From Clostridia bacterium (lineage in GTDB: Bacteria > Bacillota > Clostridia > Oscillospirales > SIG627), in contig JAFQMA010000004.1 of assembly GCA_017414535.1 (NCBI GenBank), positions 1-49,729 on the forward strand: a stretch of 49,729 nt of DNA. The letters are read 5' to 3'. Positions 17,789 through 42,953 of the stretch are shown here, piece after piece (positions within the stretch are counted from its first letter, which is position 1; the number at the start of each line of letters is the position of its first letter). The translations under genes were made by a program, and so were the position numbers. The notes below the pieces were generated by a model. The model saw only the letters and a program-made list of their open reading frames with translations, had not been told where the DNA came from and did no database searches.

Positions 17789-18535
17789 ATGAGAGATTAT
17801 AAAAAAGAAACGGAAATGAGAGTGGCCTTTATTCGCGCCCAGCTGGAGCAGAGCGGTGCCCGCGGCATCGTATTCGGAAATTCCGGCGGTAAGGACTGCG
17901 CTCTGGTGGGGATCCTTTGCAAAATGGCCTGTGAGAATACGGTCAGCGTGATGCTGCCCTGTAGCTCTTCGGTCAATTTCGGCAAGGATCTGGCCGATGC
18001 CCGCGCCTTGTGCGAGTCCTTTGGAATTGAAAACCGCATGGTGGATCTGACCCGCGTCAAGGAGGCGCTTCTTGCAGCACTGGAGGAGGCCGCGACCCTG
18101 AACGATGCCGCCCTGACCAATATCGCGCCCCGTCTGCGCATGACCACCCTTTATGCCATCGGTGCCGCTGAGGGACGTCTGGTAGCGGGCACGGGCAACC
18201 GCAGTGAGCGTTATATGGGCTACTTTACCAAGTGGGGCGACGGGGGACACGATTTCAACCCCATTTCCGATCTGACCGTCACGGAGGTCTATGAATTTCT
18301 CCGCCATTTGGGCGCGCCTTCTTCCATCATTGAAAAGGCTCCCTCTGCAGGGCTTTACGAGGGGCAGACCGACGAGCAGGATATGGGCGTGACCTACCGT
18401 GCCGTGGATGAATACATCCTCTGCGGCACCGCGACTGACGCCGACCGCGCCGTCATCGACCGTTATCACGCCCGCTCCCTGCACAAGCTCCGTCCCATTC
18501 CCACCTTCGAGGCTTGGCAGAAGGCGCAGGAATAG
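17789..18535 (+). CDS. nadE: NH3-dependent NAD+ synthetase
   Basis: Last step of NAD synthesis: nicotinate adenine dinucleotide plus ammonia and ATP gives NAD+. The 248-residue protein has the PP-loop SGGKDC at 32-37 (the usual last residue is Ser; here it is Cys), then GTGNRSE, TKWGDGG and the PSAGLYEGQTDEQDMG substrate motif. It lacks the N-terminal glutaminase domain, so it uses free ammonia. It starts 2 bp after the DUF1934 stop and probably depends on that gene's promoter. A type A repeat begins about 20 bp after its stop codon. Confidence 0.92.
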   Translation: MRDYKKETEMRVAFIRAQLEQSGARGIVFGNSGGKDCALVGILCKMACENTVSVMLPCSSSVNFGKDLADARALCESFGIENRMVDLTRVKEALLAALEEAATLNDAALTNIAPRLRMTTLYAIGAAEGRLVAGTGNRSERYMGYFTKWGDGGHDFNPISDLTVTEVYEFLRHLGAPSSIIEKAPSAGLYEGQTDEQDMGVTYRAVDEYILCGTATDADRAVIDRYHARSLHKLRPIPTFEAWQKAQE

Positions 18536-18558
18536 TTTTTTCTTGGGAGGAACTTTTT

Positions 18559-18620
18559 TACGGGGGAGGACCTTTTGCAAAAGGTCTCTCCCCCGTACCC
18601 CCTCCCCAAAATCCTTTAAT
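18559..18620 (+). repeat. Type A hairpin repeat, copy 6
   Basis: Intact copy just after the nadE stop, oriented with its hairpin towards the gene. It forms the left end of a 1.86-kb segment whose right end is copy 7. Confidence 0.9.
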
Positions 18621-18638
18621 TTTTATATTGTTATACAA

Positions 18639-18697
18639 AAAAGAGGCCTTTCCGAAATTCGGAAAGGCTTCCTTCACGTTTGCGAAGCAAACACTAT
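18639..18697 (-). terminator. Hairpin pair ending the lipoprotein transcript
   Basis: On the minus strand a GTTTGC/GCAAAC hairpin is followed by GCCTTTCCG/CGGAAAGGC and CCTCTTTTTT. It lies just after the lipoprotein stop at 18,712 and resembles the 3' end of the type F cassettes. Confidence 0.7.
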
Positions 18698-18711
18698 CAT
18701 TCGCTTTTTCG

Positions 18712-20296: not shown

Positions 20297-20418
20297 AACC
20301 AAAGGTTTTTGGGGAGGGGGTTCGGGGGAGATCCATGGCGACCTCATCCGTCACGGCTTTGCCGTGCCACCTTCCCCCACCGGGGAAGGCTTCTTTTTGC
20401 AAAAGGTCCTCCCCCGTA
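20297..20418 (-). repeat. Type A repeat, copy 7, with nested insert
   Basis: The outer parts match the usual type A element, but one arm of the hairpin is replaced by about 63 bp (20,330-20,392) starting ATCCATGGCGACC and ending GGGGAAGGCTTC. The same insert occurs in copies 10 and 12. It is the inverted partner of copy 6. Confidence 0.85.
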
Positions 20419-20483
20419 AAAAATATCAATAAATCCAAAAAACAAAAAAAGAGGCCTTTCCGAAATTCGGAAAGGCTTCCTTC

Positions 20484-20573
20484 ACGTTTGCGAAGCAAAT
20501 ATTTCACTTTGCCGTAAGGCAAAATTTCATCCGCACAGCGGATTTCACCGAGCCGCAGGCTCGATTTCATTGA
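20484..20573 (-). repeat. Type F hairpin array, copy 1
   Basis: On the minus strand, straight after a terminator T tract: four hairpins (GAGCC/GGCTC, CCGC/GCGG, TTTGCC/GGCAAA, ATTTGC/GCAAAC) separated by ATGAAAT or GTGAAAT. Confidence 0.85.
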
Positions 20574-20604
20574 AAAAAGACCTTGATTTTTCAAGGTCTT
20601 TTTT
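20573..20604. terminator. Bidirectional terminator after the SGNH hydrolase-DUF1292 unit
   Basis: AAAAAA, GACCTTGA, TTTT loop, TCAAGGTC, TTTTTT. It would end the minus-strand transcript leaving the DUF1292 gene. Confidence 0.85.
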
Positions 20605-20795
20605 CTAACCCGCCCGACCGTGTGAAGGGAAATGAAAACCCCACTAGCCAAGGGGCGGTGCCCTCTCTCTAACTTCTGTGCTACCAGCTTACCCGGGGGG
20701 AGGGCGAGGTCTGCAGCCGTTTCGAGAAGTCGGACTCCAAATTCATTTTGTAGGTTCCTTGTCGCCTTCATCACGCGAGGGGCAGGCGGGGGGAC

Positions 20796-24040: not shown

Positions 24041-25192
24041 ATGAAGATCGCACTGTTCGGTTTCGGTACCGTAGGCAAGGGTGCCTACGATATTCTTATG
24101 GCAAGAGAGGATATGCACGTCAAATACGTGCTGGATAAAAGAGAGCTGCCCGAGGTCACGGAGAGCATTGTGACGAGCAACCTCGATCAGATCCTGTCCG
24201 ACCCCGAGGTGGAGACCGTCATCGAGCTGATCGGTGGTCTGCACCCCGCTTACGAATTCGTTAAGGCCGCCCTGGAGGCAGGCAAGAACGTGGTCTCCGC
24301 CAATAAGCTGCTCATCAGCCTCCATTACGAGGAGCTGGTGGGACTGGCTCGCGAGAAGGGCGTTTCCTTCCGCTTTACTGCAGCCGCAGGCGGCGGTATT
24401 CCTTGGCTGGTGAACCTGCAGAGAGCCGCAAGACTGACCCGTCTTTCCTCCGTTTCCGGTATTATGAACGGCACCACCAACTATATTCTGGATGCCATGC
24501 AGACCCTGGAGCAGGATTTTGACGTAGCTTTGGCCGAGGCGCAGAGACTTGGCTTTGCCGAGGCCGATCCCTCCTCCGATATCGACGGCTTGGATACCCG
24601 TCACAAGACCACCCTGTCCGCCAACGTGGCCTTCGGTGTGGCCCTGGACGATGAGAAGGTGGACGCCTTCGGTATCCGCTACGTAAAGAAGTGCGATATT
24701 GACGCCGCCGTGGCCAAGGGCTATTGCTTAAAGCTTATCGGCAGAGCCTGCCGCGTGGGTGAGGGTGACGCCGTGGCCGCCTTTGTGGAGCCTACCATGG
24801 TTCCTGCCGAGACGCCCGCAGGCAATATTCACGGCTGTGACAACATTATCACCTTCGAGGGCGAGTACATCGGCAAGACCCATTTCGTGGGCGCCGGCGC
24901 CGGCCGCTATCCCACGGGTTATGCCGTAGCGCAGGACGTACTGGACATTGCCGAGGGCAAGGCAGGTCTTTACAACGAGGGCATGGCTGCACAGAGCATT
25001 GCCAACGAGAGCGAGTGCCACCCCTACTACGTGCGCGGCGATCTGTCCGATCCCTTCTTTGCCGCCTTGGAAAAGACCCCCTTCGGCGACGGCTTCAAGA
25101 CCGAGCCCGCCACCGTTCGTGCCATGCACGACGCGGCCGCCCGCACCCTCGCCGCAGGCAAGGATATTTTCATCGCAGGATTTATGATGTAA
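24041..25192 (+). CDS. hom: Homoserine dehydrogenase
   Basis: NAD(P)H-dependent reduction of aspartate semialdehyde to homoserine for threonine and methionine synthesis. The 383-residue protein has the Rossmann start IALFGFGTVGKGAYD (3-17), VVSANKLL, the GIMNGTTNYIL signature and the active-site region FAEADPSSDIDGLDTRHK. It lacks the C-terminal ACT domain of many bacterial enzymes (usually 420-440 residues), so feedback inhibition through that domain is unlikely. AAGGAG precedes the ATG. A terminator follows the stop at once. Confidence 0.94.
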   Translation: MKIALFGFGTVGKGAYDILMAREDMHVKYVLDKRELPEVTESIVTSNLDQILSDPEVETVIELIGGLHPAYEFVKAALEAGKNVVSANKLLISLHYEELVGLAREKGVSFRFTAAAGGGIPWLVNLQRAARLTRLSSVSGIMNGTTNYILDAMQTLEQDFDVALAEAQRLGFAEADPSSDIDGLDTRHKTTLSANVAFGVALDDEKVDAFGIRYVKKCDIDAAVAKGYCLKLIGRACRVGEGDAVAAFVEPTMVPAETPAGNIHGCDNIITFEGEYIGKTHFVGAGAGRYPTGYAVAQDVLDIAEGKAGLYNEGMAAQSIANESECHPYYVRGDLSDPFFAALEKTPFGDGFKTEPATVRAMHDAAARTLAAGKDIFIAGFMM

Positions 25193-25219
25193 AAAAAGGA
25201 GCCGAAAGGCTCCTTTTTT
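25191..25219 (+). terminator. Terminator of hom
   Basis: AAAAAAA, GGAGCC, GAAA loop, GGCTCC, TTTTTT, starting inside the hom stop codon. A type F-like hairpin array follows immediately. Confidence 0.9.
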
Positions 25220-25335
25220 CAGTGATGCACGGGCGAATGCCCGCGTGAAGCGGCGGCTGTACCGCCGTGATGCAGAAGCCATGCGGCTTCCGTGAAGCGA
25301 AGCGTCCTTTCGGCCGCATCATTTTCGCCTGCGGC
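25220..25335 (+). repeat. Type F-like hairpin array, copy 2 (variant)
   Basis: Immediately after the hom terminator: hairpins GGGCGAATGCCC, GGCGGCTGTACCGCC and GAAGCCATGCGGCTTC, separated by GTGAAGC and GTGATGCA instead of GTGAAAT. It begins TTTTTTCAGTGATGC, as the other arrays begin TTTTTTCAGTGAAAT. Confidence 0.7.
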
Positions 25336-25372: not shown

Positions 25373-25480
25373 TCATTGAAGCACAATTGTTACAAAACGA
25401 GTGTCGCTGTAGGGCGGGGGCTTGCTCCCGCCCTACAGCGGCGCATTGTAACGGCATGAAACAGAGGAATAAAAAAATAA

Positions 25481-25538
25481 CACCAAAAGTTTTTGAAGAG
25501 GGTTTGGGAGGAACTTTTTGTCGAAAAAGTTCCTCCCA
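25481..25538 (-). repeat. Type A' repeat, copy 9
   Basis: Variant with GGGAGGAACTTTTT/AAAAAGTTCCTCCC arms. On the minus strand it begins about 17 bp after the rnfB stop. Between copies 8 and 9 lies one GGCGGG...CCCGCC palindrome (about 25,413-25,433). Confidence 0.85.
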
Positions 25539-25554
25539 AAAAATCAATATTAAA

Positions 25555-26340
25555 TCACAGCTTCACGATACAGCCGCGGGGGCAAGCCTCGGCACAGAGG
25601 CCGCAGGAAGTGCACTTGGTCTGATCGATCTCGGCCACGCCGTCGGTAACGGTCACGGCACCGTTGGGGCAGACCTTTTCGCATTTTTTACAGCCGATAC
25701 AGCCCACCTCGCAGGCGCGCATAACGTCCTTGGGCTTCTCGTGGGAGCTGCACTGCACTGCGTAAACGGCCTTTTCGGGGATCATGACGATGAGCCCTTT
25801 GGGACAGGCCTTTACACAGGCACCGCAGGAGTGGCATTTGTCCTTTTCTACCTGCGCCACGCCGTCGATCACGTGGAGCGCATGGTATTCGCAGGCGCGC
25901 TCGCAGTTGCCCAGCCCCGTACAGCCGTTGTGGCAGAGCTTGTTACCGCCCGCCAGAGAGGCGGCGATCCGGCAATCGCGAATGCCCTCGTAAAGATACT
26001 TTTCCTTGGCACGGCATCCGCCGCTACACATGACGTGGGCCACCTTCTTTTCCACCGTCATGCGGGGCAGACCCAGAAGATCGCAGATCTCGTCCCGCGC
26101 TTCGGTATCCATACTGCCGCATCCGTCGGGAGTGGCCTCCCCGCGCAGAAGCGCCTCCGCAAAGGAGGAACAGCCCGCAAAGCCGCATCCGCCGCAGTTG
26201 GCACCGGGCATGAGGGCCTTGACGCGCTCCTCCCGCTCGTCGGTCTTCACGGCGAATTTTTTAGCCAGAAAGGCAAGGCCGCTTCCGAAGAGGCCGCCCA
26301 GCACCAGAAACCAAAGGACGGCGTAGAAAATATGTTCCAT
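25555..26340 (-). CDS. rnfB: Rnf complex subunit B, iron-sulfur protein
   Basis: Soluble iron-sulfur subunit of the membrane Rnf complex, which transfers electrons between reduced ferredoxin and NAD+ while moving Na+ or H+. The 261-residue protein has an N-terminal membrane helix (about 5-27), then the CGGCGFAGC domain followed by TPDGC, a middle cysteine-rich domain (CSGGCRAKEK...CHNGCTGLGNCERAC), and three ferredoxin-type motifs: CHSCGACVKACPKG, CIGCKKCEKVCPNG and CTSCGLCAEACPRG. This many clusters is normal for clostridial RnfB. It is the last gene of rnfCDGEAB, with AAGGAGG before its ATG. Confidence 0.95.
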   Translation of the reverse strand: MEHIFYAVLWFLVLGGLFGSGLAFLAKKFAVKTDEREERVKALMPGANCGGCGFAGCSSFAEALLRGEATPDGCGSMDTEARDEICDLLGLPRMTVEKKVAHVMCSGGCRAKEKYLYEGIRDCRIAASLAGGNKLCHNGCTGLGNCERACEYHALHVIDGVAQVEKDKCHSCGACVKACPKGLIVMIPEKAVYAVQCSSHEKPKDVMRACEVGCIGCKKCEKVCPNGAVTVTDGVAEIDQTKCTSCGLCAEACPRGCIVKL

Positions 26341-30770: not shown

Positions 30771-30798
30771 AAAAAAGGAGCCCACGGGCTCCTTTTTT
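30771..30798. terminator. Terminator of the PIG-L family gene
   Basis: AAAAAA, GGAGCCC, AC, GGGCTCC, TTTTTT, 3 bp past the stop codon at 30,801 on the minus strand. Confidence 0.9.
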
Positions 30799-30800
30799 CT

Positions 30801-31866: not shown

Positions 31867-32607
31867 ATGAATAAGATCTACTATTCCGGTGAGAAAAAGC
31901 GGAAGCTGCGCTTCTTTTTGTCCGATCTGCACCGCGATACCGTGGCCTTTTCCCGTGACGAGCAGGACGCTATTTATTTAAATAAGCACAATTACGCGGA
32001 GATCCACATGATCTCCGACGGCACCATGCGCTGTACCGTTGACGGCAAGGACTATTGCCTCTCGGCGGGAGATGCCGTTCTGGTGCCCGCGGGCTCTTAC
32101 CACGCCTGCCTCCCCTCCGACCGCCGTCGCCACGAAGCCTTTCAGGCAGATATCGAATGCGATGCCGTGGCCATTCGGCATTTTCCGCCGGAGCTTTTTG
32201 AGGAGCTGTTTGCCCGCTGGCGCGAGGGAAACGAGACCGTCATCAATTATCTGACCTTTATCTGCAACGAGCTGACGGGGCGCGCGGACTTTCGCTTTGA
32301 GGAGAATCGGGACGATCGCTACCTGATCTCCTCCTATATCGAGCAGAATTATTACCGCGGCGGTACGGTCAAGGAGCTGGCCGCTCTTTTGCACCTGTCG
32401 GAAATGCATACCCAGCGACTTGTGAAAAAATATACGGGCAAGTCCTTCGGAAGGTGTATGCGGGAGCATCGCATCAATATCGCCGAGCAGCTCATGAAAA
32501 CCGGCACCATGACGCGCGAGGCCATCGCCCGCTACGTGGGCTACGCCTCCTACAACGGCTTCTGGAAGGCCTATCAAAAGGAAAAGTCCGAGCAGGATAT
32601 GGACTGA
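31867..32607 (+). CDS. AraC family transcriptional regulator
   Basis: A 246-residue regulator. The N-terminal half is a cupin-like sensor domain (YAEIHMISDGTMRCTVDG...GDAVLVPAGSYHAC, about 37-80), and the C-terminal half has the double helix-turn-helix of the AraC family (VKELAALLHLSEMHTQRLVKKYTGKSFGRCMREHRINIAEQLM, then IARYVGYASYNGFWKAYQKE). The start is the ATG at 31,867 with GGAAAGGG upstream; further upstream ATGs in frame lie in the promoter region. The ligand is unknown; the divergent PIG-L family gene suggests an amino-sugar or similar small molecule. Confidence 0.9.
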   Translation: MNKIYYSGEKKRKLRFFLSDLHRDTVAFSRDEQDAIYLNKHNYAEIHMISDGTMRCTVDGKDYCLSAGDAVLVPAGSYHACLPSDRRRHEAFQADIECDAVAIRHFPPELFEELFARWREGNETVINYLTFICNELTGRADFRFEENRDDRYLISSYIEQNYYRGGTVKELAALLHLSEMHTQRLVKKYTGKSFGRCMREHRINIAEQLMKTGTMTREAIARYVGYASYNGFWKAYQKEKSEQDMD

Positions 32608-32639
32608 TTTTTTTTGAAATGGACTTTTTTAGGAGTTTC

Positions 32640-32760
32640 ACGGGGGAGGACCTTTTGCAAAAAGAAGCCTTCCCCGGTGGGGGAAGGTGGCACGGCAACG
32701 CCGTGACGGATGAGGTCGCCATGGATCTCCCCCGAACCCCCACCCCAAAAACCTTTGATT
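32640..32760 (+). repeat. Type A repeat, copy 10, with nested insert
   Basis: About 35 bp after the AraC gene stop. The right arm of the hairpin is interrupted by a 63-bp insert (32,664-32,726), the reverse complement of that in copy 7. Confidence 0.85.
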
Positions 32761-32843
32761 TTTATATTGTTATACAAAAAAGATGCCTTTCCGCTTGCGC
32801 AGAAAGGCTTTTGTTTTCTTGGGGTGGAAAAAATAATAAAAAC

Positions 32844-41179: not shown

Positions 41180-42111
41180 GACAAGAGAGAGTGATGGTAC
41201 TGATGGGCGGCGTCAGCCCCGAGCGAGAGATCAGCCTGCGCAGCGGCAAGGCGGCCGCCGCCGCTTTGCGAGAGAGGTTCGAGCACGTGACGGAGCTGGA
41301 TCTGACCCCTGAGAGTCTGCCCGTTTTGGTGGAGGAAAAGCCGGACGTGGCCTTTATTGCCCTTCACGGCGTGCTGGGCGAGGACGGTGCCCTGCAGGGG
41401 CTTTTGGAGTGGCGCGGCATTCCCTATACGGGACCCGGCGTGGCCGCCAGCGCCCTTTGCATGGACAAGATCACAACAAAAATGATCCTGCGGGAGTGCG
41501 GCGTTGCCACGGCGCCCTTTCTGGCTCTTTCTCCCGATGAGGATGCGAAGGAGGCCGCTTCCCGCGCCTTGGCGGAGCTGGGGCTTCCCCTGGTGCTGAA
41601 ATCCTGCCGTCAGGGCAGCAGCATCGGCACTGCCATCGTGAGATGCGCGGAGGAGGCCGCCCCCACCCTGCGGGAGCTGTTCGCCCTGGGCGATCCCGTT
41701 TTGGCAGAGAAATTTCTGTCGGGCACGGAGCTTTCCATTCCCGTTTTGGGGAACGATGCTCTCACCGCCCTGCCCGTTATCGAGATCGTGGCGGACGGCG
41801 AATTTTACGATTTTGAATCCAAATATACCCCCGGCAAGAGTCGCCACGTGATCCCTGCCCGCATTTCCCCCGCGGTGGAGGAAAAGGCCAAGGAGCTGGC
41901 TTTCCGATCCTTCCGTGCCACGGGCTGTCGCGGCATCGCCCGTGTGGATCTGATGCTGGACGGGACGGGGGAGCCCTTCGTCATTGAATTGAATACCATC
42001 CCCGGCATGACCGAGACCAGTCTTGTGCCCGACGCCGCCCGCCACGCGGGAATGAGCTTCGGTGAGCTGGCCGAACGGCTGGTGGACCTTGCGTTGGAAA
42101 AAAGGGCCTGA
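41176..42111 (+). CDS. ddl: D-alanine-D-alanine ligase
   Basis: ATP-dependent ligation of two D-alanines for peptidoglycan precursors. The 311-residue protein starts MVLMGGVSPEREISLRSG after a short N-terminus, has HGVLGEDGALQGLLE, GPGVAASALCMDKITTK, the ATP-grasp VLKSCRQGSSIGT, and the metal-binding end VIELNTIPGMTETSLVP, all ddl hallmarks. The start is a GTG at 41,176 overlapping the preceding stop (GTGA), with AGGAGG 9 bp upstream. Its stop codon lies inside the stem of its terminator. Confidence 0.94.
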   Translation: MRQERVMVLMGGVSPEREISLRSGKAAAAALRERFEHVTELDLTPESLPVLVEEKPDVAFIALHGVLGEDGALQGLLEWRGIPYTGPGVAASALCMDKITTKMILRECGVATAPFLALSPDEDAKEAASRALAELGLPLVLKSCRQGSSIGTAIVRCAEEAAPTLRELFALGDPVLAEKFLSGTELSIPVLGNDALTALPVIEIVADGEFYDFESKYTPGKSRHVIPARISPAVEEKAKELAFRSFRATGCRGIARVDLMLDGTGEPFVIELNTIPGMTETSLVPDAARHAGMSFGELAERLVDLALEKRA

Positions 42112-42127
42112 GATCAGGCCCTTTTTT
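42098..42127 (+). terminator. Terminator overlapping the ddl stop
   Basis: AAAAAA, GGGCCTGA, GA, TCAGGCCC, TTTTTT. It is followed directly by a type F hairpin array. Confidence 0.9.
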
Positions 42128-42213
42128 CAGTGAAATCGCACTGTGTGCGGTGAAATCCGCTGACGCGGATGAAATTTTGCCTCACGGCAAAGTGAAATAT
42201 TTGCTTCGCAAAT
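42126..42213 (+). repeat. Type F hairpin array, copy 4
   Basis: GTGAAAT, hairpin CGCACTGTGTGCG, GTGAAAT, hairpin CCGCTGACGCGG, ATGAAAT, hairpin TTTGCCTCACGGCAAA, GTGAAAT, hairpin ATTTGCTTCGCAAAT. A terminator-like hairpin (about 42,219-42,255) closes it. Confidence 0.88.
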
Positions 42214-42953
42214 GATAAGGAAGCCTTCCTGCTTACGCAGAAAGGCCTCTTTTTTATGCGCGGCTGGATGGATGGGATGAAATTCTGTAGGGAAGGGCAC
42301 GCGCTGTCTTGGTGGGGTGCGCCGCAGGCGCATGGATGGGTGCGAGCCTGTTATGCCTCGTCCCGCATGCGGACCGTCGGGGACGCCGGTCCCTACAAGA
42401 TGTTTTTCTCCCTCGGTTTTTTCGTAGGGCGGGGGCTTGCTCCCGCCGCAACGTAGCAAATTTTGCTTTGTATCTTCCTGTTTACATACAAAGGGCGATC
42501 GAGCAAGCCTCCCGACCAGAGGGAGGGGGACCACGGATGTGGTGGAAGGATCCTGCGCGTGTAGCAATATAGCACTACGCCCCTTCGTGCGCGTGCTCCT
42601 TCAGTCACCTCCGGTGCCAGCTCCCTCCGGTCGGGAGCCTCTCCGCCCAAACTGTTTTATGACAGAAAGATACAAAAAATAAATCTGTCGCTAACGCCTC
42701 ATCCTCCCCCCGACCGGGAAGGCAACGCCCGCCCGAATGATTATGATAAATTCCCCTACAAACAGACCCGAACGAGAGGTTGGGGTGCGCCGCAAGCGAA
42801 TGGATGGGTGCGAGTTTGTTTCATCATGCCCCGCAAGCGGACCGTCGGGGACGCCGGTCCCTACAGTCAAAATTTGTTTTGGTATGCAACAGGAAGGGGC
42901 AAGGTGCACACCGTTACGCGGCGGGGGGTGAGGGTACGCCCTACGACAAAAAC
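42214..42953. repeat. Intergenic repeat mosaic
   Basis: No gene is supported. In order: a GCCTTCC/GAAAGGC hairpin with T6, a GGATGGGTGCGAG segment (about 42,330), palindromes GGACCGTCGGGGACGCCGGTCC (about 42,372) and GGCGGGGGCTTGCTCCCGCC (about 42,428), a type E repeat (42,505-42,643), a CCCCCGACCGGGAAGGC segment, a second GGATGGGTGCGAG (about 42,800) and a second GGACCG...GGTCC palindrome (about 42,838). Confidence 0.8.
42505..42643 (+). repeat. Type E repeat, copy 3
   Basis: Same core as copies at 2500 and 19,964 (GGGGGACCACGGATGTGGTG through CTCCTTCAGTCACC). Confidence 0.85.

Follow-up and report, generated by a model that had tools for sequence, protein, structure and literature searches.

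Hairpin arrays behind terminators in gut Clostridia are likely dispersed copies of small S23-linked selfish elements

What are the arrays of short hairpins, joined by constant heptameric linkers, that stand directly behind gene terminators in the genome of a Clostridia bacterium? Four of them occur in the window, the whole stretch of 49,729 nucleotides analysed here. A reading of the letters alone (hereafter the sequence-only reading) had seen in them a post-terminator cassette, perhaps kept as a read-through RNA, an RNA-protein binding array or a 3'-end device. The recurring unit with its constant linkers, paired stems and fixed orientation stood, whereas a read-through RNA or 3'-end device as the reason for it found no support. 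We established the anatomy, borders and copy number of the elements, their spread between unrelated sites, the coupling of linker to S23 and the co-occurrence of the two, and we consider it likely that the arrays represent copies, dispersed and for the most part without a gene, of small S23 selfish elements that insert behind terminator hairpins.

Location and anatomy of the window arrays

Direct inspection of the sequence confirmed the four arrays at the sites and in the orientations claimed for them, and the linker positions could be read off. Three arrays have GTGAAAT or ATGAAAT linkers: the ddl array (42130, 42150, 42169 and 42192, plus strand), the PIG-L array (30762, 30740, 30721 and 30699, minus strand) and the 20.5 kb array (20564, 20542, 20524 and 20501, minus strand). 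The fourth, behind hom, has GTGATGC or GTGAAGC linkers (25222, 25245, 25267 and 25292, plus strand). All four open with TTTTTTCA right out of the terminator T-tract and run in the same direction as the upstream gene, and a second terminator-like GCCTTTC hairpin closes two of them (42128, plus, and 20572, minus), both as the sequence-only reading had it. No copy in the window carries an S23 gene. The features are listed below, read from the sequence where no score is given.

42104..42127, plus: ddl terminator hairpin and T-tract, proposed insertion target; its 5' arm overlaps the ddl stop codon
42128..42219, plus: Gut-1 type array with CA, four GTGAAAT/ATGAAAT linkers, four hairpins and the closing linker GATAAGG (49.3 bits)
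42220..42255, plus: closing hairpin and T-tract (second terminator), 3' end of the one-armed element; the module recurs in other copies
30771..30800, minus: terminator of the PIG-L gene, beginning directly 3' of the stop codon
30645..30770, minus: Gut-1 type array and closing hairpin (GTTATGG module; 48.9 bits)
20603..20791, minus: probable 6S RNA gene upstream of the 20.5 kb array (Rfam RF00013, 32 bits, cut-off 46.4)
20573..20604, minus: terminator of the probable 6S RNA
20486..20572, minus: Gut-1 array, exceeding the Rfam cut-off (62.7 bits)
20445..20485, minus: closing GTGAAGG linker, second terminator GCCTTTCCGAATTTCGGAAAGGC and T-tract
25191..25219, plus: hom terminator
25220..25335, plus: array of a second element family, linkers GTGATGC/GTGAAGC; three more copies in the genome
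about 18640..18702, minus: fifth, truncated copy, with the last hairpin and closing (second) terminator only

The ddl ORF ends at 42111. The 20.5 kb array had been assigned to the terminator of an SGNH hydrolase-DUF1292 unit, an assignment that we revise: the array probably follows a 6S RNA gene, whose match at 20603-20791 (minus strand) has 32 bits and an E value of 1.3e-4, under the family cut-off of 46.4. This probable gene separates the DUF1292-like gene from the terminator of the array.

Gut-1 identity and distribution

The three GTGAAAT arrays share linkers and hairpin architecture with the Rfam family Gut-1 (RF01706). They score 62.7, 49.3 and 48.9 bits against a curated cut-off of 50, one copy lying over it and two just under; the only match of at least 50 bits in the window is at 20496-20572 (minus strand, 62.7 bits). 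The hom array had no match to the Gut-1 covariance model in the Rfam scan of the window. It has GTGATGC/GTGAAGC linkers, and judged by these it belongs to a different linker family from the other three, a sister family of which three further copies were found elsewhere in the genome.

A genome-wide search of the window's assembly with the Rfam model returned 52 matches at E up to 10 and 44 in a stricter run, and the genome holds about 45-50 Gut-1 copies. Many matches lie at contig ends, since near-identical repeats have this effect on assemblies. Among 245 genomes of the order, compared as species representatives and mostly MAGs, 102 contain Gut-1, and the distribution is patchy, with one congener (G003) devoid of any copy. 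The named matches with the terminator form come from Oscillospiraceae, Ruminococcaceae and other Clostridia MAGs, many of them from ruminants and deer. Gut-1 was published as a probable noncoding RNA and listed as 'human gut only' (Weinberg et al. 2010, PMC2864571); the family has no known function. In contrast to this human gut metagenome ncRNA, we find a many-copy dispersed repeat behind terminators, joined to S23 genes, in hosts that are ruminant, deer and other gut Clostridia. What Rfam calls 'Gut-1 RNA' seems to be the DNA of an S23 selfish element.

Coupling of arrays to S23 genes

Full elements show a T-tract, an array, a promoter and then an S23 gene (PF05635, '23S rRNA-intervening sequence protein'). 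In several of those found in relatives, the right arm runs straight into the promoter and the gene for a protein of 115-125 aa, which matches PF05635 (1.6e-27) and also PDB 2rld, an entry of five chains. We also selected 67 S23 genes by PF05635 alone, disregarding arrays. Genes picked in this way usually have hairpin arrays or short tandem repeats upstream, each with its own heptamer (GTGAAAT, GTGAAGC, GTGATAT, GTGATGT, GCTAAAT, TGAATTG, GCGATAT, GTTATAT, GTTATGA or ATTCCAT). At least five copies of one 6-mer occur in the 230 nt upstream of 38 of the 67 S23 genes, compared with 4 of 130 control genes. A same-strand tRNA gene lies within 700 nt upstream of 26 of the 67, an opposite-strand one in 1 case, and none does so at 58 control genes.

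The linker follows the S23 tree. Proteins of more than 60% identity share the same linker in 80-100% of pairs (80% at 60-70% identity), and where the nearest partner has at most 70% identity the linkers agree in 44 of 67 cases, the shuffled mean being 17.5 and the highest shuffled value 28. Every member with an assigned linker in a clade of 32 S23 proteins has GTGAAAT. At the level of genomes, S23 is present in 88 of the 102 with Gut-1 and in 25 of the 143 without it (Fisher p 2e-28, a statistic that ignores phylogeny); the 14 of 102 Gut-1 genomes where S23 was not seen include incomplete ones. Those S23 genes that were found in the window's genome fall into different linker clades, GTGATGT and ATTCCAT, and no GTGAAAT-type S23 partner was seen in this 86%-complete assembly.

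Placement, borders and age of the copies

The terminator linkage noted in the sequence-only reading is common without being universal. A T-tract lies at most 14 nt away in 45 of 81 arrays selected with the Rfam model, whereas in the relative G012 a GCATAACGC-type hairpin, not a terminator, takes the terminator's place beside stop codons. tRNA genes stand upstream of 17 of these 81 arrays and of 42 of the 106 arrays in a named set that was chosen for having a T-tract; further arrays come after tRNA 3' fragments ending CCAGAAAAA. We rejected the idea that the elements generally insert at stop codons, terminator-linked arrays being no closer to stops than other terminators. At six loci (L005, L132, L165, L174, L201 and L224), a tRNA 3' fragment with terminal CCA is fused to a terminator and array, and element right ends (GTAGCCCATAGACA) sometimes substitute for the tRNA CCA, a pattern that suggests repeated insertion at one tRNA flank.

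For the left border we compared T-tract arrays in pairs that share 85% identity or more. Within such pairs the identity is 0.93-0.97 from the T-tract onward (0.93 at -10 to -1), 0.42-0.46 over the terminator stem (0.42 at -20 to -11) and 0.25-0.28 beyond -50. Homology begins at the T-tract while the terminators differ, so the terminators belong to the sites and the element begins behind them. At the right border, S23 copies are 0.67 identical in the last 20 nt up to the stop codon and 0.31 in the 20 nt behind it (for example L374/L402), and the homology of full elements ends at the S23 stop codon. Blocks of 200-600 nt that are 88-97% identical lie between unrelated flanks, both within and between genomes (L376/L380/L018, L001/L050/L198 and L138/L195/L193/L167). 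At L376 (1240-1680), a 97% identical two-armed element apparently sits inside a terminator hairpin loop (AAAAGGGACGGAAAA / TTCAGTCCCTTTTATTT).

Five of the six arrays of G021 are at orthologous sites in its close congener G007, with hairpin units gained or lost, indicating that a good many copies are old and have stayed in place. Comparison of ddl orthologues within the genus yielded no clean array-less site: G003 has a terminator without an array, and G001 and G002 run into another gene, these three being too distant, at about 60% protein identity, to provide one. Searches of the congeners of G007 with queries derived from it likewise failed to reveal a clean empty site.

A rival reading is that the arrays are REP/BIME-like 3'-end elements of mobile origin that the host has retained, and that now absorb supercoiling or block read-through behind strongly transcribed genes. 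Their position behind tRNA, probable 6S RNA and protein genes, in the direction of transcription, agrees with this, as do the double terminators of two window copies and the site conservation between G007 and G021. However, the arrays are patchy among congeners and missing from G003, and neither the S23 coupling nor the selfish-element borders require a host function. We regard retention by the host as an unlikely explanation of the arrays. For old copies it is compatible with the selfish-element reading, and the one-armed copies of the window could have been kept for a host function.

Pairing and loop statistics

The sequence-only reading had stated that stems differ between arrays and keep their pairing, which proved true well beyond chance: related arrays supplied 331 distinct hairpins, and 97.1% of the cells at their four outermost pairs are Watson-Crick, compared with 32.6% (highest 36.6%) when the 3' arms were dealt anew. 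Such strong pairing is what one would expect of a structured noncoding or 3'-UTR RNA, as filed by Rfam (Gut-1, sRNA), with read-through transcripts acting as RNA. The Rfam family itself rests on covariation (PMC2864571), the orientation behind genes is fixed, and in G012 the array comes after the stop codon with no T-tract and is probably transcribed there. The arrays are nevertheless positioned behind terminators, and their stems lack the signature of RNA. If a sense RNA were selected, G-U pairs should exceed A-C mismatches; this is true of stems of tRNAs from these loci (GT 98, AC 4), but not of array stems on the sense strand (GT 6 and AC 17, with 1134 Watson-Crick cells).

The loops point in the same direction. 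The GTGAAAT strand has C-TN(N)C-G loops 174 times and C-GN(N)A-G loops twice, whereas terminator loops in the same comparison have no bias (47 to 51). The complementary strand thus carries C-GNA-G and C-GNNA-G loops, and loops of the GNA and GNNA classes are reported, given two or more G-C pairs, to form DNA mini-hairpins of extraordinary stability (PMC4686876). A purine occupies position 3 in 44 tetraloops and a pyrimidine in 38, whereas the GNRA loops of RNA require the purine. Polarity is reversed in the right arm of two-armed elements, the stable loops being on the complementary strand on the left and on the sense strand on the right, so no single RNA explains both arms. Pairing and loops together speak against a sense RNA as the basis of the structure and with it the read-through RNA first proposed, and we consider an RNA function of the arrays quite unlikely. 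These statistics favour a DNA element, and we infer that the hairpins act as DNA, extruded into mini-hairpins that have GNA or GNNA loops. Since the two strands come out alike with the DNA folding parameters applied, the argument for DNA rests on the statistics of the sequences and on the published measurements cited. Some of the Watson-Crick purity could also come from palindrome correction at replication. As a caution, covariation alone can give a DNA palindrome element the appearance of a structured RNA.

Comparison with known systems

The -35/-10 promoter of S23 begins no more than about 20 nt from the right arm, and the arrays might accordingly be operators or binding sites that regulate this promoter, with the dispersed copies as decoys or relics. 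This would leave the 45-50 gene-less copies behind terminators and the T-tract left border unexplained, and it is very improbable. A phage origin was discarded, as the viral-contig linker-pattern matches listed included no array with hairpins.

Like REP/BIME sequences and their RAYT partners, the arrays are dispersed, palindromic, located at gene 3' ends and tied to a single small protein family of matching specificity; unlike them, their partner is S23 and not a Y1 transposase. Mobilisation by IS200/IS605 or RAYT was rejected because Y1_Tnp (PF01797) is absent from G000, G007, G012, G024, G032, G040, G044 and other array-rich genomes. Group IIC introns insert directly behind intrinsic terminators, as is proposed here for S23 elements, but the ribozyme and reverse transcriptase of these introns have no counterpart here: intron families gave no match in the Rfam scan of the window, and RVT_1 was not found in G000 and most array-rich relatives, for which reason mobilisation by a reverse transcriptase in cis was also rejected. 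Integron attC sites (GTTRRRY/RYYYAAC, integron integrase) were considered, the folded strand being the template strand directly behind the gene; the housekeeping hosts (ddl, hom, tRNA) speak against integron cassettes.

With the intervening sequences (IVSs) of 23S rRNA, such as that of Coxiella burnetii (PMC4990558), the elements share the S23 (PF05635) gene, present in full copies of relatives, the tandem heptamers directly upstream of its start codon, a sporadic distribution and insertion at a hairpin. In C. burnetii, GACAGAT heptamers in varying number lie just upstream of the S23 start codon, and IVSs take the place of tetraloops in rRNA helices (PMC4990558). The Coxiella heptamers were the only earlier report of S23-linked repeats found in the literature covered, which included few subscription papers or preprints. 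Unlike 23S rRNA IVSs, the elements lie behind tRNA, protein and probable 6S RNA terminators and not inside 23S rRNA, have perfect hairpins between the heptamers, and occur in many gene-less copies per genome. Because they are not located in a 23S rRNA helix they are not rRNA IVSs; they behave like IVS/S23 elements and are probably related to them. Avd of diversity-generating retroelements is homologous to S23/PF05635 (PMC10053308), but S23 elements, unlike Avd systems, come without reverse transcriptase, template or variable repeat.

Proposed mechanism

In the mechanism that we propose, a full element starts behind a terminator with CA. Perfect mini-hairpins follow in one or two arms, joined by a heptamer specific to the family, and after them come a promoter and the S23 gene, which encodes the four-helix-bundle protein of 23S rRNA intervening sequences (PF05635) and at whose stop codon the element ends. 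Insertion would take place directly behind terminator hairpins, mainly those of tRNA genes and also those of some protein genes and of the probable 6S RNA. The co-inheritance of linker and protein suggests that the S23 protein would recognise the linkers and hairpins of its own family. Copying into hairpin DNA would proceed via host replication or repair, which we invoke because the genome requires neither a Y1 transposase nor a reverse transcriptase. The gene-less window copies would be either mobilised in trans or relics.

More broadly, and tentatively, the S23 protein may spread these elements without transposase or reverse transcriptase by recognising arrays of extruded DNA mini-hairpins joined by family-specific heptamers, new copies arising behind terminator hairpins and the rRNA IVSs being one branch. 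If true, this would give a likely function to two orphans at once, the Gut-1 Rfam family and the protein family S23/IVP, a puzzle ever since IVSs were discovered. S23 would gain a candidate ligand, linker-hairpin DNA, and the proposed target rule would be DNA hairpins, whether terminators or rRNA tetraloops. As Avd is an S23 homologue, the result may also bear on the origin of Avd.

Other repeats at array and S23 loci

Several further repeats were observed. Other dispersed repeats of the window, such as GGAGGACCTTTTGCAAAAAGAAGCCTTCCCC..., GGGGTGGGGGTTCGGGGGAG and ACACCAAAAGTTTTTGAAGAG, often lie directly 3' of arrays (18500-18640, 20350-20450, 25480-25560, 32600-32800 and about 599-667). At the G007/G021 loci L370, L379, L385, L388, L392 and L393, tandem hairpin units with ATGATG linkers adjoin the arrays in varying number, and a separate 35-nt tandem repeat (TAGGGCTATATATAGACCTAATCTAAAAAACAGTT), also of varying number, adjoins arrays at the same loci. 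Finally, a deeper S23 clade has short direct repeats (GAATGCGGAATGC, TTCATTATTCATT, AGAGAGAAG) in place of hairpin arrays (L397, L401, L404, L408, L419, L422, L425-L427, L434, L436 and L437), some of these loci lying behind tRNA terminators.
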